DNA from: Modestobacter sp. L9-4
Lineage (GTDB): Bacteria; Actinomycetota; Actinomycetes; Mycobacteriales; Geodermatophilaceae
Direction of reading: 5' to 3'
NCBI RefSeq assembly: GCF_019112525.1
Contig: NZ_CP077800.1
Span: 3,100,001-3,164,000 of the forward strand
Length of the DNA: 64,000 bases
Under the pieces are notes generated by a model that did not search any database, was not told the origin of the DNA, and saw nothing but the letters and a program-made list of their open reading frames with translations. Of the stretch, positions 8,590-22,071 are shown one piece after another. Numbering within the stretch: position 1 is the first letter of the stretch; each line of letters opens with the position of its first letter. The position numbers and the translations under genes are program-made.

Positions 8590-8674
8590 GGCCGGACCCC
8601 GAGCGCGTTCCGCTCCTCGGTCGCTGGCGCTCCCTGCGATGCTCGCTCACTCGGTGTGTGCCCGGCGATGCTCA
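8578..8674. repeat. 86-bp intergenic insert flanked by an 11-bp direct repeat
   Basis: GGCGATGCTCA occurs at 8578-8588 and again at 8664-8674, so one copy plus the DNA between them makes an 86-bp unit. The interior is rich in GCTCGC/GAGCG-type words typical of small actinobacterial intergenic repeats. The pattern looks like an insertion with duplication of the fliG start region. Confidence 0.55.
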
Positions 8675-8675
8675 C
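8586..8675 (-). CDS. 29-residue leader ORF coupled to fliG
   Basis: A GTG at 8675 follows a strong GGAGGA site by 7 bases and opens a 30-codon frame. Its TGA overlaps the fliG ATG in the form ATGA. Its first codons (V-S-I-A) mirror those of fliG (M-S-I-A) at the DNA level. I think this is the old fliG start, cut off by a small insertion. It now probably serves to deliver ribosomes to fliG rather than to make a useful peptide. No homologue is known to me. Confidence 0.5.
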   Translation of the reverse strand: MSIAGHTPSERASQGAPATEERNALGVRP

Positions 8676-8736
8676 TGCTCAGTCCTCCTGTCGCTGGACG
8701 CCCGCGGCGTCCCCTTCTTCATCGGCAGTCCGGGAC

Positions 8737-8774
8737 GACGACGGGCCGGGTCCCGAGGGACCCGGCCCGTCGTC
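8737..8774 (-). terminator. Perfect hairpin between fliF and fliG
   Basis: An 18-bp perfect stem (8737-8754 with 8757-8774) ends 6 bases after the fliF stop on the minus strand. No U tract follows. It looks like a terminator or processing barrier inside an otherwise continuous operon, so it would lower expression of fliG and later genes relative to fliF. Confidence 0.75.
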
Positions 8775-8779
8775 CCGGG

Positions 8780-10339
8780 TCACTTCGACTCGGCGAACCA
8801 GCCGCGCAGCATGGTGGCGACCTCGTCGGGGCGGTCGCTGACCATCTCGGAGATCTCGCCGCGGACCTTCTCCCGCTGGGCGGCGGCCAGCTGGGCTGCG
8901 CGGTCGTCGAGCTCGGGGTCGCGGATGCTCTCGACCTGGATGCGCTCGTAGTCGGCCGGCTCGTCGTCCTCGAGCTCCTCGTACTCCTCGCGGTTGCGGC
9001 GCGAGCGGAGCCAGACGATGAGCACGAGCAGGGCGATGCCCAGGGCGATGCCGCCGGTCTTGATCATCGACCACATCTGGGCGGTCTTCTCCGCCTCCCG
9101 CTCGGCGGCGAGGTCGGCGGCTGCCTGCTCGGCCGCGGAGGTGTCGAAGGCCATCGTGGCGACCGAGATCGCGTCACCACGGGCGGGGTCGAGCCCCACG
9201 GCGGTGGCGACCAGGTCCTGCACCTGCTGCTGGTTCAGCGCGCCGGCGACGGCGGAGTCCAGCGCCACCGACACGGTCAGCCGCTGGGTGGTGCCGGGAG
9301 CGGCGGAGACCACCTCGGTGGTCTTGTCCACGGCGTTGTTCGACGTCGTGTTGGTCTTGTCGTAGGCCGAGTCGCCGCCGGGGGTGCCCGCGGTGTCCTC
9401 GGCGCCCAGCACGCCACCGACCGCGCCGGCGGTGCCGGTGTACTTCTCGGTGGTGCTCTGCTCCGACAGCGCGGGGGTGTTCGGGTTGTAGCTGTAGCTC
9501 TCCTTGGTGGTGTCCCGCTTGGCGAAGTCGAGGTCCGCCCGCACCGAGACGACGGACTTGCCGCGCCCCAGGATCGGGTCGAGCACCTTCTGCGCGTTGG
9601 CGGCCAGCCGGGCCTCCTGCGCCTGCTCGGCCTCGGCCTGCGCGTCACCGGTGGCGCCGCCGGCGGCCTCACCGGCCGCCGACAGGACGGCACCGGTGGA
9701 GTCCGCGACCGTGACCGACTCCGGGGCCATGCCCTGGATGCTGGAGGAGACCAGGTGGGTGACCGCCTGGATCTGCTCCCCGTCCAGCTTCGTGCCCGGC
9801 GCCAGGTCCAGCAGGACAGAGGCGGTGGGCTTGCCCTCGTCGGTGGCGAAGACGTCGTCCTTGGGCATCGCGACGTGCACGACCGCCGACCGGACGCCGT
9901 CCAGGGCCTTGAGGGTCGTCGACAGCTCGCCCTCCAGGGCGCGCTGGTAGGAGACCTGCTGCTGGAACTCACTGGTCGTGATGCCCTGCTTGTCCAGCAG
10001 CGAGTAGCCGGTCTCGTTGCCCTCGGGCAGGCCCTTGCCGCTCATCGCCAGGCGCAGGTCGTAGACCTTGTCCTGGGCGACCATGATCGTGCCGCCGCCG
10101 TCGGCCAGCTGGTACGGGACGCCCTCGGCCGTGAGCTCCTCGACGATCGCCGAGGCATCGGAGGAGGCCAGGTTGCTGAACAGCGGCGACAGCGTCGGCG
10201 CGGTGATCCAGCGGGTGAAGACGACGCCTCCGAGCAGCAGACCGGCCAGCAGCAGGCCGATCACGATCTTCTGCCCGAGGCTGATCGTCGACAGCAGGGT
10301 CTTGACCCGGTTCAGCGGGCCGGCGAGGGCGGCGGGCAT
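8780..10339 (-). CDS. fliF: Flagellar MS-ring protein FliF
   Basis: This 519-residue membrane protein has one transmembrane segment near residue 25-45 (LGQKIVIGLLLAGLLLGGVVF) and another near 430-450 (GGIALGIALLVLIVWL). They flank the YscJ/FliF ring-building domains (LAMSGKGLPEGNETGYSLLDK, YQRALEGELSTTLKALDGV). The cytoplasmic tail that binds FliG follows the second segment. The length is normal. The ATG shares one base with the fliE stop (TGATG arrangement). FliF is the foundation ring on which rod, C ring and export gate assemble. Confidence 0.96.
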   Translation of the reverse strand: MPAALAGPLNRVKTLLSTISLGQKIVIGLLLAGLLLGGVVFTRWITAPTLSPLFSNLASSDASAIVEELTAEGVPYQLADGGGTIMVAQDKVYDLRLAMSGKGLPEGNETGYSLLDKQGITTSEFQQQVSYQRALEGELSTTLKALDGVRSAVVHVAMPKDDVFATDEGKPTASVLLDLAPGTKLDGEQIQAVTHLVSSSIQGMAPESVTVADSTGAVLSAAGEAAGGATGDAQAEAEQAQEARLAANAQKVLDPILGRGKSVVSVRADLDFAKRDTTKESYSYNPNTPALSEQSTTEKYTGTAGAVGGVLGAEDTAGTPGGDSAYDKTNTTSNNAVDKTTEVVSAAPGTTQRLTVSVALDSAVAGALNQQQVQDLVATAVGLDPARGDAISVATMAFDTSAAEQAAADLAAEREAEKTAQMWSMIKTGGIALGIALLVLIVWLRSRRNREEYEELEDDEPADYERIQVESIRDPELDDRAAQLAAAQREKVRGEISEMVSDRPDEVATMLRGWFAESK

Positions 10340-10680
10340 CAGACCGGCATCCTCATGATCTCGGTGAAGGCGGCCACGGCGGAGTTCTTCAGCGTGACCA
10401 CGGTGTCGGTGGCCAGCCGGGCCTCAGTGCTGGCGATCATGTAGTCGTGTGCGTCCTGCAGGTCGCCGGTGGCCGCCTGGAGCGCCAGGTGGTCGACGTT
10501 GCCCTGCACGGCGTTCAGCTGGTCGATCTGGCCGGTCAGGATGTCGGCGAACCCACCGTCGCCGGCGGCCGAGGTCGCCGACGGGCTCATCGAGACGCCG
10601 GTGACGCCCGACGTGCCGTCGAGGTTGGGTGCGGGGATCCCGCCGACGAGGGCGGAGATCGCGCCGATGGGCGAGGTCAT
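10339..10680 (-). CDS. fliE: Flagellar hook-basal body complex protein FliE
   Basis: This 113-residue protein links the MS ring to the rod. The recognisable FliE core lies in the second half: DHLALQAATGDLQDAHDYMIA and then TLKNSAVAAFTEIMRMPV, whose IMRM(P/Q)V ending is diagnostic. The first 50 residues are Gly/Ser/Ala-rich. It lies between flgC and fliF, as in most flgBC-fliEF operons, with a 2-base gap from flgC and a 1-base overlap with fliF. Confidence 0.93.
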   Translation of the reverse strand: MTSPIGAISALVGGIPAPNLDGTSGVTGVSMSPSATSAAGDGGFADILTGQIDQLNAVQGNVDHLALQAATGDLQDAHDYMIASTEARLATDTVVTLKNSAVAAFTEIMRMPV

Positions 10681-10682
10681 GG

Positions 10683-11087
10683 TCAGCCCTTCCCGAGCTG
10701 CAGGGCCTGCTGGTAGGCCTCGGTGGCGCTCTTGATGGTGGCGAGGTTCGCCTGGTAGCCGCGCTGGGCCATGAGCAGCTGGGTCATCTGGTCCCCGAGG
10801 TCGATGTCCGGGAGCCGGACGTTGCCGTCGGCGTCGGCCAGCGGGTTGCCCGGGTCGTTGACCACCCGGCCCTCGGCGGAGCCGAGCTCGGTCCGCGCGA
10901 CGCGGACGCCGCCGGTGCCCGAGCCGTAGTCGACCGCCTGGGCGACGACCATCCGCTCCTGGAAGGCGTCCTGGTCCGTCGAGCGGGCGGTGTTGATGTT
11001 CGCGATGTTGTCCGAGACGGCGTCCATCCACTTGCGGTGGACGAACAGCGAGGACCCGGCGATGCCGATCGTGTCGAAGGCGGCCAC
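10683..11087 (-). CDS. flgC: Flagellar basal-body rod protein FlgC
   Basis: This 134-residue proximal rod protein shows FDTIGIAGSSLFVHRKWMDAV followed by SDNIANINTARS, the rod-protein N-terminal signature. The matching C-terminus is DQMTQLLMAQRGYQANLATIKSA. It is a standard-length FlgC. It follows flgB after one base and precedes fliE, so the three are almost certainly translated from one message. Confidence 0.96.
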   Translation of the reverse strand: MAAFDTIGIAGSSLFVHRKWMDAVSDNIANINTARSTDQDAFQERMVVAQAVDYGSGTGGVRVARTELGSAEGRVVNDPGNPLADADGNVRLPDIDLGDQMTQLLMAQRGYQANLATIKSATEAYQQALQLGKG

Positions 11088-11088
11088 G

Positions 11089-11439
11089 TCACTGCGTCCG
11101 GAGTGCGGAGCGGAGCAGGGCGTACTTGCCGTCGAGGGCGTTGAGCGACAGCTGGTACCGCAGCCCGGTCTCGGTGGCGATGACCGTCTCGGTGTCCAGG
11201 TTGACGTTGTTGCCGTCGGTGCGGGTCGGGTCGAGCGAACGGCTCATCGCGGACCGGCCGACCACGGGGGTCTCACCGCTGGCGATCTCGTTCTGCAGGG
11301 CCGACTCGAAGTCCACCCGGCCGGCGAGGAAGCCCGGCGTCTGGACGTTGGCGATGTTGTCGGCGGTCACCCGCTGGCGCTGCTGGAGTCCGGTCAGGGA
11401 CGCGTGCAGCGCGGTCATGGTCGAGTCGGTGATCAGCAC
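11089..11439 (-). CDS. flgB: Flagellar basal-body rod protein FlgB
   Basis: This 116-residue proximal rod protein has LTGLQQRQRVTADNIANVQTPGF near its start and a C-terminus of the form LSLNALDGKYALLRSALRTQ. I chose the GTG at 11439 because it leaves the short lead expected before the ALHASL motif. No good Shine-Dalgarno sequence is visible, and ATG 11418 is an alternative. It is the first gene of the flgBC-fliEF operon. A sigma-28-like promoter lies about 130 bases upstream, beyond an untranslated leader. Confidence 0.9.
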   Translation of the reverse strand: MLITDSTMTALHASLTGLQQRQRVTADNIANVQTPGFLAGRVDFESALQNEIASGETPVVGRSAMSRSLDPTRTDGNNVNLDTETVIATETGLRYQLSLNALDGKYALLRSALRTQ

Positions 11440-11567
11440 CGGGCGCTCGGCAGGGGACGACGGAGCACGGGGATACCTCCGGGTACGGCGGGACGCGCGC
11501 CCAGGGGGTCCTGGGAGCGAAGGGGCCGCCGATCCGTGGCGAGTGTGCTGCGTTCCTTGCCTCCTGG

Positions 11568-11595
11568 TCATCGGCAGGTCGGGTGCCGACCGTGA
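11568..11595 (-). promoter_or_regulatory. Sigma-28-like promoter for the flgB operon
   Basis: On the minus strand the sequence reads TCAC, 16 bases, GCCGATGA. This fits the FliA/SigD/WhiG pattern (TAAA-N15/16-GCCGATAA) and matches three other sites in the window with identical spacing. It lies in the 303-base gap 11440-11742, which otherwise holds only the neighbouring terminator and a long leader. Confidence 0.55.
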
Positions 11596-11638
11596 CCACA
11601 TGCACCCGATCGGACGCATCGAGTCACACAACGCACAC

Positions 11639-11678
11639 GTCCCCCGTGGCCAGAGCGACGCTCGTGGCCACGGGGGAC
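11639..11678 (-). terminator. Terminator after the fliD-fliS-fliT-like operon
   Basis: A 14-bp perfect stem (11639-11652 with 11665-11678) encloses a smaller GAGC/GCTC hairpin. It lies about 65 bases past the stop of the fliT-like gene and separates that operon from the flgB promoter. Confidence 0.75.
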
Positions 11679-11742
11679 GGGGGAGTGCGGTGGGGCTGGT
11701 GTGACGGTGCTCTGCGCCGGGCTCGGGGGAGGGGGTCCCGCC

Positions 11743-12117
11743 TCAGAGCGCCTGGTCGATGAAGGAGGCGACGGGGCGGGTCGGTGCGTAGGACATCCGG
11801 GCGGCCACGTCGCGCTGCTTCTGCGACTGGGTGATCCGCTCGACCAGGGCCTCGGCGACGGCCAGCTGGTGCTGCAGCAGCCGGGCGGCGCGCTCGCGCA
11901 GGTCGTCGGGGAGCGGGCCCAGGCTGCTCGGCGGGATCCAGTCGGTGGACCGGCGCCCCCAGGCGGCGATCTCCTCGGCCCGGCCACGGGCGAGGGTCTC
12001 CTCGGCCTCGTACACGTCGCCCTCGAGGGCGTCGAGGACCGCGGGCCAGCTCTGCGCCCCGGACCGCCGGGCAGGGGGGTCCCCGACCCGGTTGCGCGGG
12101 ACGTGGCCGGAGGTCAT
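11743..12117 (-). CDS. Probable flagellar chaperone, FliT-like by position
   Basis: This 124-residue, mostly helical protein (WPAVLDALEGDVYEAEETLARG..., LRERAARLLQHQLAVAEALVERI) has no domain that I recognise. Its ATG overlaps the fliS stop by 4 bases, exactly where fliT sits in many flagellar operons. Its size and helix-rich composition also fit the FliT group, which chaperones FliD. The conserved-looking part is residues 25-120, and the C-terminus ends FIDQAL. The function is inferred from place and shape only. Confidence 0.65.
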   Translation of the reverse strand: MTSGHVPRNRVGDPPARRSGAQSWPAVLDALEGDVYEAEETLARGRAEEIAAWGRRSTDWIPPSSLGPLPDDLRERAARLLQHQLAVAEALVERITQSQKQRDVAARMSYAPTRPVASFIDQAL

Positions 12118-12500
12118 GCCGACGTCGTGGCGAGGGACGCCGCAGCCTCCCGCCATGCGTCCCGCAGCGGCTCGACGATCCGCCGGCAGTCGCCGATCCG
12201 TCGGACGTCGCCCTTCACGTTGGCCGAGATCAGCTCGGTGAGCAGCCAGGTGTAGAGCGCGGCCAGGCGGGGACCGCCCTCCCAGACGTCGACCCGGAGG
12301 CTGCCCTGCAGCTCCATGACGATCTCCTGGGCGTGCTGGAGCTGCTGGCTCGCCGCCTCGCGGTCGCCGGCGACCAGGGCGGTCTGGCCGCGCTCGAGGT
12401 CGAGGGCGAGACGGTCGTACAGCATGACCAGCAGCTGCTGCGGCGACGCGGTGGTGACGGCGTCGCCCAGGTAGCGGGCCCGCAGGGCGGCGGCACTCAT
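12114..12500 (-). CDS. fliS: Flagellin export chaperone FliS
   Basis: This 128-residue helical protein matches FliS throughout: LRARYLGDAVTTASPQQLLVMLYDRLALDLE near the start, and LYTWLLTELISANVKGDVRRIGDCR near the end. FliS binds the disordered flagellin C-terminus and prevents early polymerisation. It follows fliD with a 25-base gap and overlaps the next small gene, forming a fliD-fliS-fliT-like unit downstream of the flagellins. Confidence 0.95.
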   Translation of the reverse strand: MSAAALRARYLGDAVTTASPQQLLVMLYDRLALDLERGQTALVAGDREAASQQLQHAQEIVMELQGSLRVDVWEGGPRLAALYTWLLTELISANVKGDVRRIGDCRRIVEPLRDAWREAAASLATTSA

Positions 12501-12525
12501 CGGTTCTCCTCCAGGTACACGGGGG

Positions 12526-13908
12526 TCAGGACTTGGACGGGCTGGGCAGCGACGAGAGCTGCGACGACAGCCAGGAGGCCTGGTTCTGCATCGTGCCCAG
12601 TGCCGTCTCCATGGCGGTGAACTGCTTGGTCAGGTTGTCCTTGCGCAAGGCCAGGCGGATGTCCCAGGCGGCGATCTGGTCGGTCAGCGCACTGGCCGCC
12701 ATGTCCTGGCTCTTGGCCAGCAGGATCAGGGTGCCGCCCGTGGAGTCGGTCGCCTTCTTCGACAGCGCGAGCAGCCGCTGGGCGACGCCCGGGACCGCGG
12801 CGACGTCGTCGGCGCTGCCGGCGATCCCGTCCACGTCGGAGGCGGCTGTGCCGTTGACCAGCCGCTGGACCAGCGACGGGTCGGACTGCAGCTTGGCGGT
12901 GAAGACGGCCTTGTCGAACACGAGCGAGCCGTCCCGGTTGAGCTGCAGGCCGGCGGTGGCGGCCGACTTGCCACCGATCGCGTAGCCGACGGCGTCGAGG
13001 ACCTGGGAGGTCAGCCCGCGCAGCGTGCTGTCGCCCTTGAGCACGGCCTTGCTGCCGGTGGAGGTGTCCGTGTTGCTCTTGATGGCCGACAGCACGGCGT
13101 TGGCGGCGGTGACCATCGACTGGACCGCGGTGGCCACGGCGTCGGGGTCGCCCGCGACGCTGACGGTGACCGGGCCGCCGGTCTGGCTGACCGTGATCGG
13201 GGTGCCGCGCATCAGCTCGCTGAAGGTGTTGGTCGACGAGACCGCGTCGAAGCCGGTGGTCGCGTCGCCGACGTGCACCTTCGCGTTGGTGCCGGTGGTG
13301 AGCACACCGAAGGTCGGCGTCGTCTCGCCGGTGGCGGCGAGGGTGAAGCGGGAGGCCTCACCGGTCGCGGTGGAGCTGACCTGCAGCCGGTAGCCGGTGC
13401 TGGTGTTGACCGCGGTGGCGGCGAGCCCGTAGCCGGAGGAGTTGATGGCCGCGACCGTGTCGGCGAGGGTGGCGCCGCTCTTCAGTGCGATCTGCTTGCT
13501 GCTGCCGTCGGGTGCGGTGAGGACCAGCGGGGAGGCCTGACCGAAGGCGTCGGTGGTCTTCGTCCAGGTCCCGGCGCTCAGCACGGAGTGGTTGGCGGCC
13601 AGCGCGGTGACGCTGAACGTCAGCGAGCCGGGGGTCGCGTCCGCGCTGGCGGTGGCGGTCACCGTGGTGGCCGAGCTGGTCGCCTTCGCGGCAGCCCAGG
13701 CGGTCGCCTTGGTGAGGGCCTCGGCGGCCGTGCGCAGCGCGTCGAACTTGGTGTTGATCGCCCGGTACGCGGTGGCGTCGGCCTGGGTGTCGGTCAGCCT
13801 GGTCTTGAGCAGGGTCTGGGGGTTGGCCTCGATCTGCATCAACTGGGTGATGAGAGAGCCGGTGTCCATCCCGGAGATCAGGCCGGTGCTCACGCTCATG
13901 CCTGCCAT
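12526..13908 (-). CDS. fliD: Flagellar filament cap protein FliD
   Basis: This 460-residue protein caps the filament and inserts flagellin subunits. The N-terminus has STGLISGMDTGSLITQLMQIEANPQ, the FliD/HAP2 signature. The C-terminal half has the FliD_C features (GLTSQVLDAVGYAIGG, FTAKLQSDPSLVQRLVNG) and ends with a helical coiled-coil region (LRKDNLTKQFTAMETALGTMQNQASWL). The ATG at 13908 has GAGGAA seven bases upstream. The flagellin A terminator lies immediately before it, so it may have its own weak promoter or depend on read-through. Confidence 0.95.
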   Translation of the reverse strand: MAGMSVSTGLISGMDTGSLITQLMQIEANPQTLLKTRLTDTQADATAYRAINTKFDALRTAAEALTKATAWAAAKATSSATTVTATASADATPGSLTFSVTALAANHSVLSAGTWTKTTDAFGQASPLVLTAPDGSSKQIALKSGATLADTVAAINSSGYGLAATAVNTSTGYRLQVSSTATGEASRFTLAATGETTPTFGVLTTGTNAKVHVGDATTGFDAVSSTNTFSELMRGTPITVSQTGGPVTVSVAGDPDAVATAVQSMVTAANAVLSAIKSNTDTSTGSKAVLKGDSTLRGLTSQVLDAVGYAIGGKSAATAGLQLNRDGSLVFDKAVFTAKLQSDPSLVQRLVNGTAASDVDGIAGSADDVAAVPGVAQRLLALSKKATDSTGGTLILLAKSQDMAASALTDQIAAWDIRLALRKDNLTKQFTAMETALGTMQNQASWLSSQLSSLPSPSKS

Positions 13909-13945
13909 GTCGCTTCCTCGGTTCTCTGGTCGTGCGGGGCACGCA

Positions 13946-13978
13946 GTGAGGGGGGAGGCCGGGGGCCTCCCCCCTCAC
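13946..13978 (-). terminator. Terminator after flagellin A
   Basis: A perfect 15-bp stem (13946-13960 with 13964-13978) with a GGG loop lies 51 bases past the flagellin stop. Almost the same hairpin follows flagellin B, showing that it was duplicated with the gene. Confidence 0.8.
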
Positions 13979-14029
13979 CGGGTGGTGCTGGGACGTGCTG
14001 TGGTGCCGTTCAGGTGGTGCTCAGGCAGA

Positions 14030-14866
14030 TCAGCCCAGGAGCTTCAGGATGCCCTGGGTGGACTGGTTGGCCTGGGCCAGCATCGACGTGCCGGCCTGGG
14101 TCAGGATCTGCGTGCGGGTGAAGTTGGTCATCTCCTGGGCCATGTCGGTGTCGCGGATGCGGCTCTCCGACGCGGTCAGGTTCTCGGCCGTGGTGTTGAG
14201 GTTGTTGATGGTGTGCTCGAACCGGTTCTGGATGGCACCCAGGTTGGCGCGGGCGGTCGACACGTTCTTGATGGCGGTGTCGATGGCACCGATGGCAGCC
14301 GAGGCACCGGCGGCCGTGGTCAGGTCGATGGAGTCCACGGCCAGACCGGTGGAGGAGAAGCTGGTCGAGCCGCTGGTGGCGCTGATCTTGACCGCGGTGG
14401 TGTCGCCGGAGGCGTAGCCGACCTGGAAGGTCTTGTTGTACGACCCGTCGAGCAGCTTGACGTTGTTGAAGGTCGTCTTGTCCGCGATCCGGGTGAGCTC
14501 CAGCTTGAGGGCGTCGCCCTCGGAGTCCATCGCGGCGTTGGAGTTGGCGTCGTTGCCGCCCTCGTTGGCCGCCTGGACGGCGAGGTCGCGCATGCGCTGC
14601 AGGATCGAGGTGGTCTCGCTCAGGCCACCCTCAGCGGTCTGCACGACCGAGATGCCGTCCTGGGTGTTGCGGACGGCGACCTTGATGCCACCGATCTGCG
14701 AGCGCAGGCCCTCGGAGATCGCGAGGCCGGCGGCGTCGTCGGCGGCGCGGTTGATGCGGAAACCGGAGGAGAGCTTCTCCAGCGACTTCGCCATCTGGTT
14801 GTTCGTGGTGCTCAGGTTGCGGTAGGCGTTGAGAGCCGAGGTGTTGGTGTTGACGCTGAGACCCAT
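14030..14866 (-). CDS. fliC: Flagellin, copy A (downstream)
   Basis: This 278-residue short flagellin consists of the D0/D1 domains only. The N-terminus is MGLSVNTNTSALNAYRNLS with the SGFRINRAADDAAGLAISEGL motif. The C-terminus is FTRTQILTQAGTSMLAQAN followed by QGILKLLG. A small variable insert of about 70 residues (150-215) replaces D2/D3. It is exported and polymerises into the filament. Residues 1-105 and the last 70 are essentially identical to copy B, and only the middle differs. The ATG has GGAGGAAACC just upstream, and its leader carries two CsrA-type motifs. Confidence 0.96.
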   Translation of the reverse strand: MGLSVNTNTSALNAYRNLSTTNNQMAKSLEKLSSGFRINRAADDAAGLAISEGLRSQIGGIKVAVRNTQDGISVVQTAEGGLSETTSILQRMRDLAVQAANEGGNDANSNAAMDSEGDALKLELTRIADKTTFNNVKLLDGSYNKTFQVGYASGDTTAVKISATSGSTSFSSTGLAVDSIDLTTAAGASAAIGAIDTAIKNVSTARANLGAIQNRFEHTINNLNTTAENLTASESRIRDTDMAQEMTNFTRTQILTQAGTSMLAQANQSTQGILKLLG

Positions 14867-14871
14867 GGTTT

Positions 14872-14916
14872 CCTCCGTGGAATTCGGGCTGCTGTGTGGA
14901 GACCGCTGCATCCGTG
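14872..14916 (-). promoter_or_regulatory. Flagellin A leader with two CsrA-type sites
   Basis: On the minus strand the leader contains CACGGATG (14909-14916) and CACGGAGG (14872-14879). Both fit CANGGANG, and the second covers the Shine-Dalgarno sequence. The GGA cores are 37 bases apart. This resembles the two-site arrangement by which CsrA represses flagellin translation in Bacillus. Confidence 0.5.
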
Positions 14917-14936
14917 CTGCGGGTGACGCACTGCCT

Positions 14937-14964
14937 GTAACGGCTGCTGGCGGGAGTTCCTTGA
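14937..14964 (-). promoter_or_regulatory. Sigma-28-like promoter of flagellin A
   Basis: The minus strand reads TCAA, 16 bases, GCCGTTAC, close to the FliA/WhiG consensus. Transcription would start near 14928, giving a leader of about 60 bases. The rest of the 325-base gap 14867-15191 holds only the flagellin B terminator. Confidence 0.65.
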
Positions 14965-15120
14965 CCCGAAGCCGGAACTTTTCTCCGGCCTCCCCCCGCC
15001 GGGTGGGGTGTCCGCCCGGGGGTCGGTGTCCGCCGGCCCGTGCAGGACTGCGCGCGGGCACCGCCCGCGGCACGCGGCCGGGTACCGGCCCGGCACCCGG
15101 CGACCTGCCGGGGGACGCAC

Positions 15121-15151
15121 TGAGGGGGGAGGCCGGTGGCCTCCCCCCTCA
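15121..15151 (-). terminator. Terminator after flagellin B
   Basis: A perfect 14-bp stem (15121-15134 with 15138-15151) with a 3-base loop lies 40 bases past the flagellin B stop and is a near copy of the hairpin after flagellin A. Confidence 0.8.
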
Positions 15152-15191
15152 GCGGGTGGTGCTGTTCAGTGCTGGGACGTGCTCAGGCAGA

Positions 15192-16028
15192 TCAGCCCAG
15201 GAGCTTCAGGATGCCCTGGGTGGACTGGTTGGCCTGGGCCAGCATCGACGTGCCGGCCTGGGTCAGGATCTGCGTGCGGGTGAAGTTGGTCATCTCCTGG
15301 GCCATGTCGGTGTCGCGGATGCGGCTCTCCGACGCGGTCAGGTTCTCGGCCGTGGTGTTGAGGTTGTTGATGGTGTGCTCGAACCGGTTCTGGATGGCAC
15401 CCAGGCTGGCGCGGGCGGTCGAGACGTTCTTGATGGCGGTGTCGATCAGGCCGATGGCGGTCTGCGCGCCGGAGGCCGAGGTCAGGCTGACGGCGCTGAC
15501 GCCCAGGTCGCCGGCGTCGAAGCCCACGCCGCCGCTCGCCGACTGGATGGTGACCTTGGTGGTGTCACCGGAGGCGTAGCCGACCTGGAAGTTCTTGTCG
15601 TAGGTGCCGTCGAGCAGCTTGACGTTGTTGAAGGTCGTCTTGTCCGCGATGCGGGTGAGCTCGGACTGCAGCGTCTTGCTCTCGGCGTCCATGGCGGCGT
15701 TGGAGTTCGTGTCGTTGCCGCCCTCGTTGGCCGCCTGGACGGCGAGGTCGCGCATGCGCTGCAGGATCGAGGTGGTCTCGCTCAGGCCACCCTCAGCGGT
15801 CTGCACGACCGAGATGCCGTCCTGGGTGTTGCGGACGGCGACCTTGATGCCACCGATCTGCGAGCGCAGGCCCTCGGAGATCGCGAGGCCGGCGGCGTCG
15901 TCGGCGGCGCGGTTGATGCGGAAACCGGAGGAGAGCTTCTCCAGCGACTTCGCCATCTGGTTGTTCGTGGTGCTCAGGTTGCGGTAGGCGTTGAGAGCCG
16001 AGGTGTTGGTGTTGACGCTGAGACCCAT
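15192..16028 (-). CDS. fliC: Flagellin, copy B (upstream)
   Basis: This is a second 278-residue flagellin with the same D0/D1 ends as copy A. The DNA is identical over 375 bases at the 5' side (15711-16085, including the leader) and about 226 bases at the 3' side. The middle differs clearly (for example GGVGFDAGDLGVSAVSLTSASG here against GSTSFSSTGLAVDSIDLTTAAG-type sequence in A). Both should co-assemble or be alternative filament subunits. The variable middle would face outward and is Ser/Thr-rich, so it could carry glycans. A sigma-28-like promoter precedes it. Confidence 0.96.
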   Translation of the reverse strand: MGLSVNTNTSALNAYRNLSTTNNQMAKSLEKLSSGFRINRAADDAAGLAISEGLRSQIGGIKVAVRNTQDGISVVQTAEGGLSETTSILQRMRDLAVQAANEGGNDTNSNAAMDAESKTLQSELTRIADKTTFNNVKLLDGTYDKNFQVGYASGDTTKVTIQSASGGVGFDAGDLGVSAVSLTSASGAQTAIGLIDTAIKNVSTARASLGAIQNRFEHTINNLNTTAENLTASESRIRDTDMAQEMTNFTRTQILTQAGTSMLAQANQSTQGILKLLG

Positions 16029-16033
16029 GGTTT

Positions 16034-16078
16034 CCTCCGTGGAATTCGGGCTGCTGTGTGGAGACCGCTGCATCCGTG
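16034..16078 (-). promoter_or_regulatory. Flagellin B leader with two CsrA-type sites
   Basis: CACGGATG (minus strand, 16071-16078) and CACGGAGG over the Shine-Dalgarno (16034-16041) lie in a leader identical to that of flagellin A. CsrA encoded at 21681 is the natural candidate to bind here. Confidence 0.5.
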
Positions 16079-16098
16079 CTGCGGGCGTTGCTCAACCC

Positions 16099-16126
16099 TT
16101 AACGGCCGGTGCGCAGCACTCCTTGA
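16099..16126 (-). promoter_or_regulatory. Sigma-28-like promoter of flagellin B
   Basis: The minus strand reads TCAA, 16 bases, GCCGTTAA, the best match of the set to TAAA-N15/16-GCCGATAA. The preceding CGGG and following GGA bases around the -35 are shared with flagellin A. The rest of the 305-base gap 16029-16333 presumably holds the divergent promoter of the glycosyltransferase, which I cannot point to. Confidence 0.7.
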
Positions 16127-16333
16127 CCCGAACCGGGGACTTCTTCCCGCTCCTCGGTCCGGAGGCGGTGCCGCTGTCGTCCGTGCGGCCGGTGCCGTCC
16201 GCCGTGCGCGCTGCCGATACCCGGCCCGATGTCTCCAGCACCGCGTGGTGCAGGCCCGCCCCGACAGCCCCGGCAGCAGGTCAGCCGGTGCCGCGGGCGG
16301 ACCGGGACCCGATCCGGGGAGGACCCGCCGACC

Positions 16334-17407
16334 GTGAACGTCCTGTTGTGCACCACCGTCTACACCGGATCCAAGTACCACCGGATGACCGAACCGGCCC
16401 GCGCCGTGCACGAGGCCGGCCTCGGGATCCAGGTCACCGTCAGCCACGGGATCACGACCACGATGGTCCAGGAGCCGGGGGAGACCGAGCTGAGCGTCGG
16501 GGCGGTCGACGCCCAGGGCGCTGACGTCGTGGTGCTGCAGCTGCCCAAGACGGTCGCGATGCTGCAGGTGCTGCGGTTGCTGCAGGCCCAGGGCGTCGCC
16601 GTCGTGGTGGAGATGGACGACCTGCTCTCCGCCGTGCCCTACGGCCACATGGGCCACTCCGCGCTGATCCGCGGCGGCCTGGACAAGCTGGCCCTGGCCT
16701 GCGCCCGGGAGGCTGACCTGGTCACCGTCTCGACCCCCTCGCTGCTGACCGAGTACGCCACCCGCGGGCGGGGCGTGGTGGTGCCCAACGCGATCCCCCG
16801 CCGGGTCGCCGAGCTGCCGCCGGCCTACGAGCGGGAGCCGGAGACGGTGACCGTCGGCTGGACCGGGTCGGTGCTCGTGCACCCCTACGACCTGCAGGTG
16901 ATGGAGTCGGGGCTGCAGCAGGCGCTGGACCGCACCCAGGGGCAGAGCCGGTTCATGGTGATGGGTGCCGCCGGCGACTCGCGCAGCGTCCTCCGGCTGG
17001 CCGAGGACCCGGTGGTCGTCCCCTGGGTCCGCGAGGTCGACGACTACCTGACCCTGGTGGGCGAGCAGTTCGACGTGGGCATCGCCCCGCTCCGCGACGA
17101 CCGGTTCAACGACTGCAAGAGCTGGCTGAAGGTGATGGAGTACGCCGCCCGCGGCGTCTACGCGGTCCGGTCGCCCAGCAAGGAGTACGAGCGCCTCGGA
17201 CTCGGTCGGCGCGCCAAGGCCCCCCGTGACTGGGCCACCCTCATCGCCGGTGGCGTGCAGCGCCCCGACCAGCGCCGGGAGATGGCCGCGGCCGACCGCG
17301 AGGCGGTGCTGGCCCGGCACCTCACCGAGCACACGGCCGAGCTGTGGGCCGGCGCCTGGCGGCAGGCCCGGGAGAACCGCACCCGCAGCCAGCGTCTCAG
17401 CGCCTGA
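16334..17407 (+). CDS. GT-B-type glycosyltransferase beside the flagellins
   Basis: This 357-residue protein starts VNVLLCTTVYTGSKYHRM. It has two Rossmann-like halves, with VVVLQLPKTVAMLQVLRLLQ and VVVEMDDLL in the first. The second half shows VTVGWTGSVLVHPYDL and DVGIAPLRDDRFNDCKSWLKVMEYAARG, a GT1/GT4-style C-terminal sugar-nucleotide site. GTG at 16334 has GGGGAGGA ahead of it. It is transcribed away from flagellin B and ended by its own terminator. Position suggests flagellin glycosylation, but no sequence feature fixes the acceptor. Confidence 0.8.
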   Translation: MNVLLCTTVYTGSKYHRMTEPARAVHEAGLGIQVTVSHGITTTMVQEPGETELSVGAVDAQGADVVVLQLPKTVAMLQVLRLLQAQGVAVVVEMDDLLSAVPYGHMGHSALIRGGLDKLALACAREADLVTVSTPSLLTEYATRGRGVVVPNAIPRRVAELPPAYEREPETVTVGWTGSVLVHPYDLQVMESGLQQALDRTQGQSRFMVMGAAGDSRSVLRLAEDPVVVPWVREVDDYLTLVGEQFDVGIAPLRDDRFNDCKSWLKVMEYAARGVYAVRSPSKEYERLGLGRRAKAPRDWATLIAGGVQRPDQRREMAAADREAVLARHLTEHTAELWAGAWRQARENRTRSQRLSA

Positions 17408-17420
17408 CCGCAGGCACCAC

Positions 17421-17460
17421 CGACGAGGCCCCCTCCGCAGCAGCGGAGGGGGCCTCGTCG
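17421..17460. terminator. Two-way terminator between glycosyltransferase and sigma gene
   Basis: An 18-bp perfect stem (17421-17438 with 17443-17460) and AGCA loop lie between two convergent genes, so it can serve both. Confidence 0.8.
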
Positions 17461-17549
17461 TGCTGCCCGGGTGCGGATGGGAACCCCGGGCCGGACACGG
17501 CCGTGCCCCCGGACGACGTGGTGTCGGCCGGGGGCACGGGGGAGTGGTG

Positions 17550-18470
17550 TCAGGCGGGCTGGGACGCCGGCGCGCGCGGGGGGACCTGCCAGCCGTGCCC
17601 GCGGCCGCCGGGCCGGGGCGCCGGGAACGAGGGGGCGGCAGCCGCGCGACCCGTCCCGGGCTGCCGGGCGGCGACCCGCTCGACGTAGGCGCGCTGCTGG
17701 TTGCGGGCGCGCACCCCGCCGTCGGCCGCCACCGGCGTGCCGTCCCAGAGCTCGCTCATCGCCGCGTGCAGCAGGGTCAGCGCCCGGGCGCGCATCTGCG
17801 AGACGCGGGACAGGGTGACCCCGAGGGAGTCCGCGATGTCGGTGAGCGACTCGTCACCGAAGAAGTTGCGCTCGACGACCTCGTCGAGCCGGTCGGGCAG
17901 TGCCCGGATCGCCTCGTGCAGGTGCCGGGCCCGCTCACCGCGCATCAGCGCGCGCTCGGGGGAGTCGCCGGTGTCGGGCAGGTCCAGCGACCCGCCGTCG
18001 GTGCCGGACTCGGCGTCCATGCTGACCATCACCGCGCGGTGCACGTCGATCTGCAGCGAGTCCAGCTCCGACCGGGCGACGCCTAGGCTGGTGGCCAGCT
18101 CCTCCTTCGTCGGCGGCCGGCCCAGGCGGATGGTGAGCGCGTCGGTCGCGGCGTCGGTGCGCCGCGCCGCGGCCCGCACCGAGCGGCTGGCCCAGTCGCC
18201 CGAGCGCAGCTCGTCGAGGACCGCGCCCTGCAGGCGGGGGAGGGCGTAGGTGGCGAAGGACGCGCCCGCGGCCGGGTCGAAGCGGCGGGCGACCTCGACC
18301 AGCGCGATGCTCGCGCAGGAGAGCAGGTCGTCCCGGCTCACGTGGCTCGGCAGGGAGATGCGGGAGGCCACCGCGTTCACCGCGAACTGGGCCAGCGGCA
18401 GGTGGGTGGTCACCAGCGCGTCGACGTCGGACGGTCGGCGATCGAGCACGGCGGAGCGGGCTGGGGTCAC
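17550..18470 (-). CDS. fliA: RNA polymerase sigma factor, FliA/WhiG/SigD family (sigma-28)
   Basis: This 306-residue protein has sigma region 2 (LLSCASIALVEVARRFDPAAGASFATYALPRLQGAVLDELR), region 3 (GRPPTKEELATSLGVARSEL) and region 4 (LPDRLDEVVERNFFGDESLTDIADSLGVTLSRVSQM). It would direct RNA polymerase to late flagellar promoters such as those proposed here. About 60 extra residues, basic and Ala/Pro/Gly-rich, follow region 4 and are unusual. The start is uncertain: GTG 18470 or GTG 18449, neither with a strong ribosome site. It diverges from flgN. No FlgM-like anti-sigma gene is visible in the window. Confidence 0.92.
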   Translation of the reverse strand: MTPARSAVLDRRPSDVDALVTTHLPLAQFAVNAVASRISLPSHVSRDDLLSCASIALVEVARRFDPAAGASFATYALPRLQGAVLDELRSGDWASRSVRAAARRTDAATDALTIRLGRPPTKEELATSLGVARSELDSLQIDVHRAVMVSMDAESGTDGGSLDLPDTGDSPERALMRGERARHLHEAIRALPDRLDEVVERNFFGDESLTDIADSLGVTLSRVSQMRARALTLLHAAMSELWDGTPVAADGGVRARNQQRAYVERVAARQPGTGRAAAAPSFPAPRPGGRGHGWQVPPRAPASQPA

Positions 18471-18549
18471 GGCTGTGTACTCGGCGGGTCCACCCCCGTA
18501 CCGGACCGCCGCCGCGCACTTTTCTGCGGTGGGTCCGGTCCAACTCGGC

Positions 18550-18577
18550 TTGATCGTCCCCAGCGGTGTGCCGATGG
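18550..18577 (+). promoter_or_regulatory. Sigma-28-like promoter of flgN-flgK-flgL
   Basis: The plus strand reads TTGA, 16 bases, GCCGATGG, with the same spacing as the flagellin and flgB sites. It lies 77 bases before the flgN start, in the divergent gap with the sigma gene. Confidence 0.5.
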
Positions 18578-18653
18578 TCCACCGACAGCGCCCGCCGGAC
18601 CCGGCAGGCGCAGGCCCCCACGGGTTGCACACGACGACGGAAAGGCGGCGGAC

Positions 18654-19145
18654 GTGGACCACCAGCACCTGTCGACGTTGCTCTGGCGGGAGCAGGAGCT
18701 CCTGGACCTCCTGCTGTTCAAGGCCGAGGAGAAGCAGTACCTCATCATCACCGGCAAGAGCCGGTGGCTGGCGCGCATCGCGCACGAGATCGAGGTCGTG
18801 CTCGAGCAGCTGCGGACCCTCGAGGTCGAGCGGGCGGCGGCGACCGAGCAGATCGCCGGCCGGCTGGGCCTGGCGGTCGACCCCTCGCTCCGGCAGCTGG
18901 CCGACGTCGCGCCGGCGCCGTGGAACGACCTGTACACCAAGCACCACGAGTCGCTGCTGGCCCTCGTCACCGAGCTGCGCTCCCTCTCCGACACCAACAA
19001 GGGGCTCATCGAGGGCGGGCTCGCGGCCATCGGCGACGCGCTGCTGTCGGTGCGCCCGGCGGGGGCGACGGCCGGGACGTACACGCAGGCCGGACGGGCC
19101 ACCGGCAACGCCTACCGCTCGGTCACCCTGGACGGCGCGCTGTGA
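18654..19145 (+). CDS. flgN: Flagellar chaperone FlgN
   Basis: This 163-residue helical protein is of the FlgN type: LSTLLWREQELLDLLLFKAEEKQYLI near the start and a long amphipathic helix EIEVVLEQLRTLEVERAAA. FlgN escorts the hook-filament junction proteins FlgK and FlgL, encoded next. GTG at 18654 has GGAAAGG ten bases upstream. The gap to flgK is 73 bases. Confidence 0.88.
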   Translation: MDHQHLSTLLWREQELLDLLLFKAEEKQYLIITGKSRWLARIAHEIEVVLEQLRTLEVERAAATEQIAGRLGLAVDPSLRQLADVAPAPWNDLYTKHHESLLALVTELRSLSDTNKGLIEGGLAAIGDALLSVRPAGATAGTYTQAGRATGNAYRSVTLDGAL

Positions 19146-19218
19146 GCCGGGTCGTGGGCGGACAGACCAGCACAGCATCCCGGCGGACCTCGCCGGCCGG
19201 CGCCAATGAGGAGCACAA

Positions 19219-20628
19219 GTGAGCACGTTCTCCGGCCTGAACCGGGCGACGACCGCCCTCTGGGCCCAGCAGCGCGGCCTGGACGTCACCGGGCAGAACA
19301 TCGCCAACATCAACACCGTCGGCTACTCGCGGCAGCGGGCCGAGCTCCAGTCGGTGAACGGCAACGTCGTCCCGGCCATCTACTCGGTCAGCAACCAGGT
19401 CGGCCAGGGCGTCGACGCCGACACCGTCATCCGGATCCGGGACGCCTTCCTGGAGAGCCGGGCCCAGGCCGAGACCGCCACCACCGCCCAGATGACCGTG
19501 CGGGACGACACCCTGGCCACGGTGGAGCAGGCGTTCCGCGAGCCGGGCACCACCGGCATCTCGGCCAAGCTCACCAGCGTCTACACGTCGTGGAGCGAGC
19601 TGGCCAGCTCTCCCAAGGAGGACGGCGCCCGCGCGGCGGTGCTGCAGAACACCGCCACCCTCGTCGCCGAGCTGCACACCACCAGCGCCACCCTGGACCA
19701 GCAGTGGACCCAGACCCGCGACAGCCTCGACGTGCTGGCGCAGGACGTGAACGCCAAGGCCCAGGCCATCGCCGACCTGAACGTCTCCATCCGGCGGGGC
19801 ACCCAGGCGGGGCTGCCGGTCAACGAGCTGGCCGACAAGCGCGACGTGCTGGTGATGGACCTGGCGGAGGCGATCGGTGCGACGTCCACGCCCGGCTCCG
19901 ACGGCCAGGTCGACGTGGTGGTCTCCGGCGCCACGCTGATCTCCGGCGGTTCGGCCACCCGGATCAAGGCCGTCGGCACCGGGGACCCGGCCACGGTCAG
20001 CGCCACGAACCCCCGGTTCGAGACCGACCCGGGCAGCACGCGGGTCGCCGTCGGCGGTACCGCGGGCGGCAAGCTCACCGCGCTGACCGAGACGATCCCC
20101 CGCTACCGCACGGAGCTCGACGCGGTGGCCCGGCAGGTGGCGCAGGAGATCAACACCGCGCACGCGCAGGGCTACGACAAGGACGGCGCCCCCGGCGGCG
20201 TCGTGTTCGACGGTGGCGGGGCCGCGACGATCACCGCGGCCACCATCACCCTCAAGATCACCGACACCGCGAAGCTGGCGGCGGCCTCCCGGCCGCCGAA
20301 CGGCACGGACCCCTCCGCGGACAACGGCAACGCCATGGCCCTGGGCAAGCTCAAGGACGCTGCCGGGGGCTCGACCACGCTCTACCGCAAGCTCATCGTC
20401 GCCCTCGGCGTCGAGGCCTCGGTGGCGACGAGCAACCTGGAGACCCAGAAGGTCATCGGCAGTCAGGTCGAGGCGTCCCGGGAGTCCGTCGCGGGGGTCA
20501 ACATCGACGAGGAGATGACGAACATGCTGCAGTTCCAGCACGCCTACCAGGCCGCCGCGCGTCTGATCACCACCATCGACGAGACGCTCGACGTGCTGAT
20601 CAACCGCACCGGCCGAGTGGGGCTGTGA
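19219..20628 (+). CDS. flgK: Hook-filament junction protein FlgK (HAP1)
   Basis: This 469-residue protein has the N-terminal rod/hook motif (LNRATTALWAQQRGLDVTGQN, NTVGYSRQRAEL) and the C-terminal counterpart (GVNIDEEMTNMLQFQHAYQAAARLITTIDETLDVLINRTG). The long middle is coiled-coil and variable, as in FlgK. It forms the first junction ring between hook and filament. A GAGG-type site precedes the GTG start, and flgL follows after 4 bases. Confidence 0.95.
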   Translation: MSTFSGLNRATTALWAQQRGLDVTGQNIANINTVGYSRQRAELQSVNGNVVPAIYSVSNQVGQGVDADTVIRIRDAFLESRAQAETATTAQMTVRDDTLATVEQAFREPGTTGISAKLTSVYTSWSELASSPKEDGARAAVLQNTATLVAELHTTSATLDQQWTQTRDSLDVLAQDVNAKAQAIADLNVSIRRGTQAGLPVNELADKRDVLVMDLAEAIGATSTPGSDGQVDVVVSGATLISGGSATRIKAVGTGDPATVSATNPRFETDPGSTRVAVGGTAGGKLTALTETIPRYRTELDAVARQVAQEINTAHAQGYDKDGAPGGVVFDGGGAATITAATITLKITDTAKLAAASRPPNGTDPSADNGNAMALGKLKDAAGGSTTLYRKLIVALGVEASVATSNLETQKVIGSQVEASRESVAGVNIDEEMTNMLQFQHAYQAAARLITTIDETLDVLINRTGRVGL

Positions 20629-20632
20629 CCTG

Positions 20633-21535
20633 ATGCGGATCACCCAGCGGTCGCTCGCGGCCACGGCGCTGCAGAACCTGAACCGCAACATGGAGGCCAT
20701 CGCCAAGCTGCAGGCCCAGCAGACCTCCGGCAAGTCGATCAACAAGCCCTCGGACGACCCGACCGGCACGAACTCGGCGATGCAGGTCCGTCAGGAGATG
20801 GCCAGCGCGACCCAGTACTCCCGCAACATCGGCGACGCGATCTCACAGCTGGACGCGACCGACTCGGCCCTGACGAACATCACCGCCCAGGTGCAGAGCG
20901 CCCGTGCGCTCACCGTGAAGGGCCTCAACGACGGCAGTCTCTCCGACGCCTCCCGGGTGGCCGTCCAGACGGAGATGAAGGGCATCCGGGAGAGCCTCCT
21001 CGGCCTGGCCAACACCGCGGTCAAGGGCCAGCCGATCTTCGGCGGGGTGACGAGCGGTGCCTCCGCCTACGACGCCGCCGGCGCCTACGTCGGTTACGGC
21101 GGCACCGCGGGGGTGCCGGTGGTCGAGGTCCGCCGGCAGGTCTCCGAGGTCGACTCGGTGCGCGTGGACGTCACCGGCCCCGAGGCCTTCGGCGACCCGG
21201 CGACCGGGGACCTCTTCTCGGTCATCGGGGACATCGCCCGCGACGTCGTGGACGACCCGGCCGCCCTGGCCGGCCACCTCGCCGCACTCGACAAGGCCCT
21301 CGACGGGCTGAAGAAGGTCGCGGCCGACATCGGCACCCGGACCAACCGGGTCGAGACGGCGCAGCAGGTGAACCAGGACCTCCAGCTGACGCTGCAGACC
21401 CGGTCGGCGTCCATCGAGAACATCGACCTGGCCAAGACCATGGTGGACCTGTCGATGATGCAGACCGGTTACCAGGCCGCGCTGGGCGCCACGGCCAAGG
21501 TCGTCCAGCCGACCCTGCTGGACTTCCTGCGCTGA
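20633..21535 (+). CDS. flgL: Hook-filament junction protein FlgL (HAP3)
   Basis: This 300-residue flagellin-like protein has MRITQRSLAATALQNLNRNM and the KLQAQQTSGKSINKPSDDPTG motif near its start. It ends with IENIDLAKTMVDLSMMQTGYQAALGATAKVVQPTLLDFLR, the FlgL C-terminal helix. It forms the second junction ring, on which FliC polymerises. The gene sits 4 bases after flgK and ends in a terminator stem that includes its own stop codon. Confidence 0.95.
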   Translation: MRITQRSLAATALQNLNRNMEAIAKLQAQQTSGKSINKPSDDPTGTNSAMQVRQEMASATQYSRNIGDAISQLDATDSALTNITAQVQSARALTVKGLNDGSLSDASRVAVQTEMKGIRESLLGLANTAVKGQPIFGGVTSGASAYDAAGAYVGYGGTAGVPVVEVRRQVSEVDSVRVDVTGPEAFGDPATGDLFSVIGDIARDVVDDPAALAGHLAALDKALDGLKKVAADIGTRTNRVETAQQVNQDLQLTLQTRSASIENIDLAKTMVDLSMMQTGYQAALGATAKVVQPTLLDFLR

Positions 21536-21562
21536 AACGGCGGCAGGGGCCGCCGTTTCAGC
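21531..21562 (+). terminator. Terminator overlapping the flgL stop
   Basis: A 14-bp perfect stem (21531-21544 with 21549-21562) with an AGGG loop begins inside the last flgL codon. It separates flgN-flgK-flgL from csrA. Confidence 0.8.
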
Positions 21563-21664
21563 GCCGCCCCTGCCGAGAAGAGAGCTGGAGCGCCGACCAC
21601 CCGGGTGGCGGCGCCCCCGTCCCGCCACACCGGCGGGGCACGCCACGGATGGCCCACACGAACC

Positions 21665-21681
21665 CATGGAGGGGTACCCCA
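21665..21681 (+). promoter_or_regulatory. CsrA-type motif over the csrA ribosome binding site
   Basis: CATGGAGG (21665-21672) fits CANGGANG and contains the Shine-Dalgarno sequence of csrA. The palindrome GGGGTACCCC directly follows, so the site sits beside a small hairpin. This arrangement would allow CsrA to repress its own translation. Confidence 0.45.
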
Positions 21682-21932
21682 TGCTCACACTCACCCGCAG
21701 CGTCGGCGAGAGCATCCGGATCGGCGAGGACATCGAGGTCTACGTCGTCGAGGTGCGCGGTGGCACCGTGCGGCTGGGCTTCAAGGCCCCCCGCGAGGTC
21801 GCCATCCACCGCGAGGAGGTCTACCGCCAGATCGCCGAGGCCAACAGCCTGGCGGCCGAGGTGGCAGCCGACGCGCTGGGCGCCTTGGCAGCATTCGCAC
21901 CAGCGTTGAACAGCTCGACTAGCAAAGAGTGA
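21681..21932 (+). CDS. csrA: Carbon storage/translational regulator CsrA
   Basis: This 83-residue RNA-binding protein begins MLTLTRSVGESIRIGEDI and continues through VRLGFKAPREVAIHREEVY, covering all five CsrA strands, including the L4/R44-type RNA contact residues (here LTR and REV). A 25-residue tail follows. CsrA dimers bind GGA motifs in mRNA leaders and block translation. In Gram-positive bacteria its main target is flagellin, controlled by the antagonist FliW, which I do not find here. I chose ATG 21681 over the upstream ATG 21666 because GGAGGGG lies at the right distance. Confidence 0.95.
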   Translation: MLTLTRSVGESIRIGEDIEVYVVEVRGGTVRLGFKAPREVAIHREEVYRQIAEANSLAAEVAADALGALAAFAPALNSSTSKE

Positions 21933-22071
21933 CATGACCGTGATCGATTCGACTCAATAGTCGTTCACCTCAGTTGCCACAGTAGTCACAGGGCGGCGAG
22001 TCTCGCCGTCGGACTGGTCGCTGCTGCGCAACTCTTCCCCCACAGCGCCACCGCTACTGGGGGAGATCGAC

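Follow-up and report, generated by a model that had tools for sequence, protein, structure and literature searches.

Flagellin leaders of Modestobacter as probable CsrA operators in a genus that appears to have lost FliW

The 64,000-nucleotide (nt) window of Modestobacter sp. L9-4 analyzed here (contig NZ_CP077800.1, positions 3,100,001 to 3,164,000; coordinates below are those of the window unless a contig is named) carries two flagellin genes on the minus strand, at 14030–14866 (PF00669 E 4.5e-43, PF00700 E 1.1e-30) and 15192–16028 (PF00669 E 7.4e-44, PF00700 E 8e-31), each encoding 278 amino acids (aa). A first-pass annotation of the sequence had placed csrA in the same locus, and the gene is indeed found on the plus strand at 21681–21932 (83 aa, PF02599 E 3.7e-24), starting with MLTLTRS at 21681, 15 nt inside an open reading frame (ORF) listed from 21666. 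In the models known to us, flagellin synthesis awaits completion of the hook through FlgM, at the level of transcription, or through FliW and CsrA, at the level of translation. We consider it highly probable that the leaders of the two flagellin genes are CsrA operators in an organism from which FliW is missing.

Each flagellin leader is built in the same order: CACGGATG, 29 nt, CACGGAGG, AAACC and ATG. The upstream predicted CsrA site, BS1 (CACGGATG), lies at 14909–14916 for the first flagellin, in the loop of the hairpin CCGCAGCACGGATGCAGCGG (14903–14922), and at 16071–16078 for the second (hairpin 16065–16084). The downstream predicted site, BS2 (CACGGAGG), sits on the Shine-Dalgarno (SD) sequence at 14872–14879, in a short UUCC/GGAA hairpin, and at 16034–16041 in the second gene; all of these features are on the minus strand. 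The GGA-to-GGA distance is 37 nt in both leaders, and the second GGA begins 10 nt before the ATG. Two CsrA-type sites per leader, the second over the ribosome binding site, were what the first-pass annotation had described, and the coordinates bear this out. The leaders thus show a hag-type layout, with two GGA sites within 10–63 nt, the second over the SD sequence and the upstream one in a hairpin loop. A sigma-28-like −10 element (GCCGTTA) is seen upstream, and the presumed leader length of about 60 bases given earlier rests on it. The two leaders are identical, as had been noted; the shared block covers 57 nt and continues without a mismatch through the first 318 nt of coding sequence, with just 38/60 positions identical in the next 60 nt upstream of the block. 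This pattern is best read as recent duplication or gene conversion; the second copy therefore adds no independent weight, and it is the relatives that do. As raw text, the motif pair is common: CANGGANG-N5..35-ANGGANG-N3..9-RTG has 10 matches on both strands of the 4.22-Mb genome and 9 when the pattern is read backwards. The starts of the two flagellins and of csrA account for three of these 10, and neither this position nor the conservation described below is a matter of chance. A third flagellin of the same genome (389 aa, GTG start; L109, C1:3272301–3272717, minus strand, outside the window) has a leader without a CsrA-type hairpin and forms an internal contrast to the two flagellins in the window.

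The encoded CsrA scores above the curated cut-offs (PF02599, 84.9 bits vs 27; TIGR00202, 82.4 vs 70.1), is 96% identical to CsrA of Modestobacter sp. VKM Ac-2986 (L039), and has L4, R6, R44 and N55 as well as an N-terminal MLTLTR. This N-terminal MLxLxR motif has a role in RNA contact by CsrA, and the relatives of known structure found by sequence include 2jpp and 5dmb. R44 is likewise an RNA-contact residue of CsrA (PMC7652899).

A scan of named genomes for CsrA yielded 30 loci, 23 of them from Geodermatophilaceae. Together with the window these make 24 sources, 20 of which gave 21 flagellin leaders, two from the window (L048, L053, L055 and L059 gave none). The core GCAGCACGGATGCAGC occurs in 21/21 of the recovered leaders and is predicted in all 21 to fold into a hairpin with GGA in the loop (the program closes an A–U pair, so that CGGA remains; taken as six nucleotides, the loop is ACGGAU). 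The spacer varies in sequence and length, and GGA–GGA distances of 33–37 nt fit the range of 10 to 63 nt over which two sites can be bridged by one CsrA dimer (PMC7652899). The small stem at BS2 alternates within the family between UUCC/GGAA, AUCC/GGAU and GUCC/GGAU; among 10 distinct forms, the outer position pairs in 9, the inner in all 10 and the position one pair further out in none.

The hairpin extends beyond the family. A class sample of 394 genomes contained CsrA in 56 and a Flagellin_N match in 59 (55 over the cut-off), a domain that also matches FlgL. Leaders taken from 50 loci (30 from the Flagellin_N scan and 20 further stretches) gave 59 distinct sequences, of which 50 contained CANGGANG, against 5.4% per dinucleotide-shuffled leader, and 44 contained it with at least 5/6 flanking pairs, against 0.085% per shuffled leader. 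In an alignment of 41 sites with a 7-pair stem, 88.9% of the cells were paired (61.7% shuffled), two-sided changes numbered 62 (19.5 shuffled), and the covariation score reached 0.597 (0.159 shuffled, standard deviation (sd) 0.023), with slid controls all at or below 0.158. The innermost C–G pair is fixed by construction because the sites were chosen by sequence, whereas the other six pairs are not; L114 is the single row with U–G at that position. Throughout the alignment the loop GGA is conserved while the stems change freely. CANGGANG is absent from 9/59 leaders, namely one from L095, two from L108, and those of L109, L114, L120, L123, L125 and L128. Variant GGA hairpins take its place in L114 and in the motif-less leader of L095, and L108 is a 63% complete genome (G370) with no csrA found. 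We conclude from these comparisons that a GGA-loop hairpin combined with a GGA over the SD sequence is conserved, with compensatory stem changes, in most of the csrA-bearing flagellate Actinomycetes examined. Comparing leaders among relatives had been suggested earlier as a check on CsrA control, and the outcome favors it. As it stands, the covarying hairpin could also serve as an RNA motif in searches for CsrA-controlled flagellins.

The earlier annotation had further proposed that CsrA would be relieved by FliW, and here the genomes disagree. The FliW profile PF02623 has no match in the genome of the window, whereas the control genomes of Bacillus subtilis and Thermotoga maritima do match. 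Profile searches found FliW in 0/23 Modestobacter genomes, 0/9 of Klenkia (g145) and 0/1 of genus g141; CsrA is encoded in 21/23 Modestobacter genomes (the two without it are ~70% complete), 9/9 Klenkia and 1/1 g141. A family-specific profile built from 11 family FliWs gave no hit with an E-value under 0.15 among the 31 FliW-less, CsrA-positive genomes of the family (control G499, 9.6e-68). Of the 112 genomes of Geodermatophilaceae, 70 have a FliW match, which is above the cut-off in 69, and 100 have CsrA. Among other csrA-positive genomes of the class, 49/55 have FliW, and the six with CsrA but without FliW (G105, G241, G304, G351, G354 and G366) have no Flagellin_N match either. The genome of the window is the sole one without FliW among the 50 class genomes that combine CsrA with a Flagellin_N match. 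Gene order points the same way: fliW lies between flgL and csrA in 16/16 Blastococcus and Geodermatophilus loci vs 0/8 Modestobacter and Klenkia sources, the window included. In the window, flgL (20633–21535, plus strand) is the upstream neighbor of csrA, and the place that fliW occupies in sister genera is a gap of 145 nt (21536–21680, plus strand; 136–151 nt in the Modestobacter and Klenkia sources). A strong inverted repeat at 21536–21575 directly follows the flgL stop, and other Modestobacter have different but analogous stems; could it be a terminator or a stabilizer of the mRNA? A TGCCGA stretch in the gap of Modestobacter resembles the 3′ end of fliW, but it sits in a strong inverted repeat, so no fliW fossil can be claimed.

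These comparisons suggest that the genus Modestobacter has lost FliW. A tree of FlgK, FlgL, sigma factor and FlgN places Klenkia first, g141 next, and then Modestobacter beside FliW-positive genera (deciding supports 60 and 78). The FliW-bearing G499 (L146, genus g146) nests inside Modestobacter in this flagellar-protein tree (supports 93 and 100), which implies repeated loss of FliW, its regain, or a transfer of the locus. Several losses, or one loss followed by regain, would both fit the tree. FlgM was found in 0/39 genomes, including 27 of the 31 FliW-less ones (three controls matched), in agreement with the 2008 Kineococcus paper (PMC2587704) and with a report that the later actinobacterial classes are without FlgM (PMC10746217). 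Given no FliW by two profiles, 0/23 in the genus and no FlgM, a FliW-based sensor of flagellin export is very probably not operating here. The earlier proposal that flagellin is made only when export is ready therefore loses its support along with relief by FliW.

The RNA sites persist where FliW is gone. Nineteen further FliW-less stretches, together with eight loci of the family of which two are without FliW, provided 40 flagellin starts; the exact core is present in 24, and 10 more have a GGA hairpin on another stem (by inspection). No loop GGA was seen in the remaining 6/40, a divergent type in L261, L263 and L266–L269. In the main flagellins compared from FliW-less Modestobacter, Klenkia and g141 the loop GGA is retained, and several of their stems are compensated; ten distinct stems from FliW-less genomes gave a covariation of 0.324 vs 0.170 for shuffles (sd 0.029; slid controls ≤0.133). 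A divergent flagellin paralogue starting with ATGAGCCTG was observed in L261, L266, L267, L268 and L269, in which a strong leader hairpin has GGC in the loop in place of GGA. It keeps CCACGGAGG at the SD sequence, as if it had escaped from CsrA at BS1; in L271 a paralogue of this type has GGA there.

The protein side tells a parallel story. In Campylobacter CsrA, V51 and N55 are required for FliW binding, and N55 is described as identical in all FliW-bearing species compared (PMC7829508). N55 is intact in 38/38 FliW-positive CsrAs compared within the family (of 69 available) and in 41/41 compared outside it (of 48), hence in 79/79, and of the 31 FliW-less members of the family 17 have another residue (7 Q and 10 R, with N in the other 14). 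By genus, 14 of the 21 Modestobacter CsrAs have N, 6 have Q and 1 has R, while the residue is R in 9/9 Klenkia and Q in g141. CsrA-like proteins in five genomes outside the family with neither FliW nor Flagellin_N (L237–L241, from G105, G241, G304, G351 and G354) also differ at this position, which simple counting along the sequence gives as R, G, G, P and G, these proteins being divergent there; the CsrA of G366 and a second copy in G288 were not recovered for this reading. In this comparison, changes at the FliW contact of CsrA are confined to genomes that lack FliW. The changes likely comprise separate events in Klenkia, in g141 and at least twice (Q and R) inside Modestobacter, and the counts share ancestry. 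Such lineages offer a natural experiment on how a protein–protein interface decays after loss of its partner.

The csrA gene itself has a two-site leader, as the flagellins do. A CsrA-type site CACGGATG lies at 21644–21651 and a second, CATGGAGG, lies over the csrA SD sequence at 21665–21672 (both plus strand). In 24 csrA leaders of the family, and in an overlapping set of 67, inspection shows a short-stem GGA ahead of one that lies over the SD sequence, with other stems around the first GGA in Klenkia. CsrA autorepression is plausible on this layout.

Joined together, these features outline a candidate circuit. A CsrA dimer would dock on the high-affinity BS1 hairpin through its ACGGAU loop, bridge 37 nt to the GGA in the SD sequence and block ribosome entry, as at hag of B. 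subtilis, and CsrA would probably limit its own synthesis through the two sites at the csrA ribosome binding site. CsrA control of both flagellins is very likely on the conserved anatomy. The earlier transfer of translational control from B. subtilis to this actinobacterium is thus supported for repression through the ribosome binding site, for which the conserved hairpin, the SD GGA and the covariation all speak, and is not supported for relief by FliW. With no detectable FliW in Modestobacter and Klenkia, the degree of repression most likely depends on how much CsrA there is relative to its target mRNAs: sigma-28-driven flagellin mRNA would titrate an autoregulated CsrA pool, and translation would begin once the mRNA exceeds free CsrA. 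This titration is our best guess, a tentative one, and is tied with relief by a protein or RNA antagonist. The broader proposal, that Modestobacter and Klenkia have a flagellin checkpoint independent of both FliW and FlgM, in which a FliW-independent, autoregulated CsrA pool is titrated by flagellin mRNA or met by a new antagonist, stands in our estimate at even chances.

Several observations weigh against this picture. BS2 coincides with an ordinary SD sequence, in which GGAGG is expected anyway, and its conservation is to that extent trivial. In the 41-site alignment, the number of stem pairs that show a two-sided change is not in excess (6 vs 5.2 shuffled), and for the ten FliW-less stems 2/5 covariation measures are no better than shuffles (pairs with a two-sided change, 2 vs 1.7). 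L120 and L128 are csrA-bearing genomes whose flagellin-like gene is without the motif, and the leader of L122 (G023, 80% complete) has the hairpin, yet no csrA was found in that genome. The CsrA of the window and 13 other members of the genus keep N55, so that no decay of this contact is seen in the species itself. A small RNA antagonist of CsrA is possible, as is a Modestobacter FliW too diverged for both profiles. In the csrA leader of the window, the minimum free energy (MFE) fold does not form the drawn hairpins, and among 29 loci examined the two-site csrA layout is clear outside the family in L031 only (G008, family f11); in this set the start of L011 was not found, those of L013 and L014 are misplaced, and L037, from the family of the window, shows the layout. 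The MFE fold and the single outside case make autorepression less certain than repression of flagellin.

A partner switch of the B. subtilis type, with Hag, FliW and CsrA, in which FliW relieves CsrA at the onset of export, would account for the leader anatomy together with a CsrA that keeps N55 in this species, and fliW does stand beside csrA in sister genera. The negative results with both the Pfam and the family-specific profile, the mere 145 nt between flgL and csrA, and the replacement of N55 in FliW-less relatives but in no FliW-positive CsrA compared largely refute it; FliW as the reliever of CsrA in this organism is very unlikely, and the switch as a whole we regard as highly improbable. 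An antagonist that has replaced FliW, whether a protein of another fold or a CsrB-like sponge RNA, is a tentative possibility, for the RNA sites are kept without FliW and FliW-less CsrAs of Gammaproteobacteria are antagonized by small RNAs (PMC7652899). The 20 listed genome hits of a hairpin model contain no GGA-hairpin cluster that would betray a sponge (150 of 3973 first-look candidates were scored, which makes this argument weak), and ORF192, the csrA neighbor described below, is no obvious substitute, being present with and without FliW.

Two further explanations concern the RNA sites. BS1 and BS2 could act mainly on the stability or folding of flagellin mRNA and not through CsrA, since BS1 folds into a stable hairpin close to the presumed 5′ end and L122 has it despite its lack of a detected csrA. 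Preservation of the loop GGA on freely varying stems does not sit well with such a role, and the ACGGAU loop is a recognition element of the CsrA family (PMC4005645). The complete, csrA-negative genomes L123 and L125 are also without the hairpin, although their flagellin-like genes share only 43–45% identity with the query and possibly serve no flagellum; we hold this explanation to be improbable. The sites could instead be a fading inheritance from a FliW-bearing ancestor, now that FliW is gone, GGC stands for GGA in a similar hairpin of the divergent flagellin of five relatives, and the third flagellin of the same genome is without a hairpin. Against such a relic speaks the loop GGA of the main flagellins in FliW-less Modestobacter, Klenkia and g141, with several stems compensated, and we consider it unlikely. 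Active CsrA operators without FliW remain the reading we prefer. With neither FlgM nor FliW detected and CsrA operators kept, these actinobacteria would be natural experiments on a flagellin–CsrA operator without its sensor.

The flagellin chaperone gene fliS lies at 12114–12500 (minus strand, PF02561 E 9.5e-31), and a FliA/WhiG-like sigma factor, likely the reader of the flagellin promoters, at 17550–18365 (minus strand, TIGR02479 E 6.6e-44, 150.3 bits, below the cut-off of 189.6). The next gene after csrA, ORF192 (22072–22650, plus strand), has no Pfam match at E 0.001 and no NCBIfam match at 0.1. It is kept in FliW-positive and FliW-negative loci alike, in 22/23 named loci (L048 ends before it), and its predicted core (residues 51–141) resembles ferredoxin-like or ACT-type folds, none of the matches being significant (Foldseek E at best 4.4e-3, VIA Z at best 8.3). 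It was considered as a substitute for FliW and set aside for its occurrence on both sides; FliW is not among the structure matches listed for it, which proves nothing. ORF379 (22728–23867, plus strand) resembles FliA/WhiG sigma factors only weakly, with a score under the cut-off (TIGR02479 E 2.6e-6), and is well conserved, at 77–96% in relatives. Among the 20 listed hits of the hairpin model in this genome, the best, above the flagellins, scores 26.0 bits at C1:1230607–1230626 (plus strand, L217), outside the window. L217 is not at a flagellar gene and has the look of a terminator, next to the point where a convergent gene ends. When the contexts of eight such hits were compared, L223 and L224 had a possible start downstream, and further CsrA targets among the hits are possible. 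An Rfam scan of positions 8000–25000 gave nothing above the gathering threshold and only sub-threshold matches (RsmW, 23.1 bits vs 52).

That CsrA controls an actinobacterial flagellin has been suggested before. The 2008 genome paper on Kineococcus radiotolerans proposed it for Krad1626 from a BS2-like match, in a setting like that of the window, with csrA in a motility island and no FlgM; the BS1 hairpin, its conservation and the question of FliW do not appear in the proposal as presented there (PMC2587704). A 2023 survey of actinobacterial flagella included CsrA and FliW as queries, and its main text makes no mention of Modestobacter, Blastococcus or Klenkia; one of the papers that mention Modestobacter, flagella and CsrA names csrA, not FliW, in the portion available. 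We found no earlier account of FliW loss in Geodermatophilaceae in the open-licence literature, judged by the titles and starts of abstracts among the papers listed.

The predicted operator has counterparts in three known systems. Like E. coli glgC, it combines an upstream hairpin site with a site over the SD sequence, bridged by one dimer, and the CsrA-type sites in the csrA leader, one of them over the SD sequence, recall the autorepression of E. coli csrA. Unlike in E. coli, no RNA of the CsrB/C type was seen here among the 20 listed hits (150 of 3973 candidates scored), and the predicted targets are the flagellins and csrA. The RsmE chain 2jpp of Pseudomonas fluorescens is a sequence relative of the CsrA of the window, and we take this entry to be the hcnA–RsmE complex. 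That complex has the same ACGGAU hexanucleotide loop (PMC4005645), although hcnA is not flagellar and the stems differ. In B. subtilis, the hag leader has two CsrA sites, one of them over the SD sequence (PMC7652899). There, csrA is translationally coupled to fliW (PMC6529632), whereas here csrA has its own two-site leader instead, and FliW is found in neither the genome nor the genus. Judged from its sequence, the Modestobacter circuit would be the known one of CsrA and flagellin, with the sensor missing and the operator kept.

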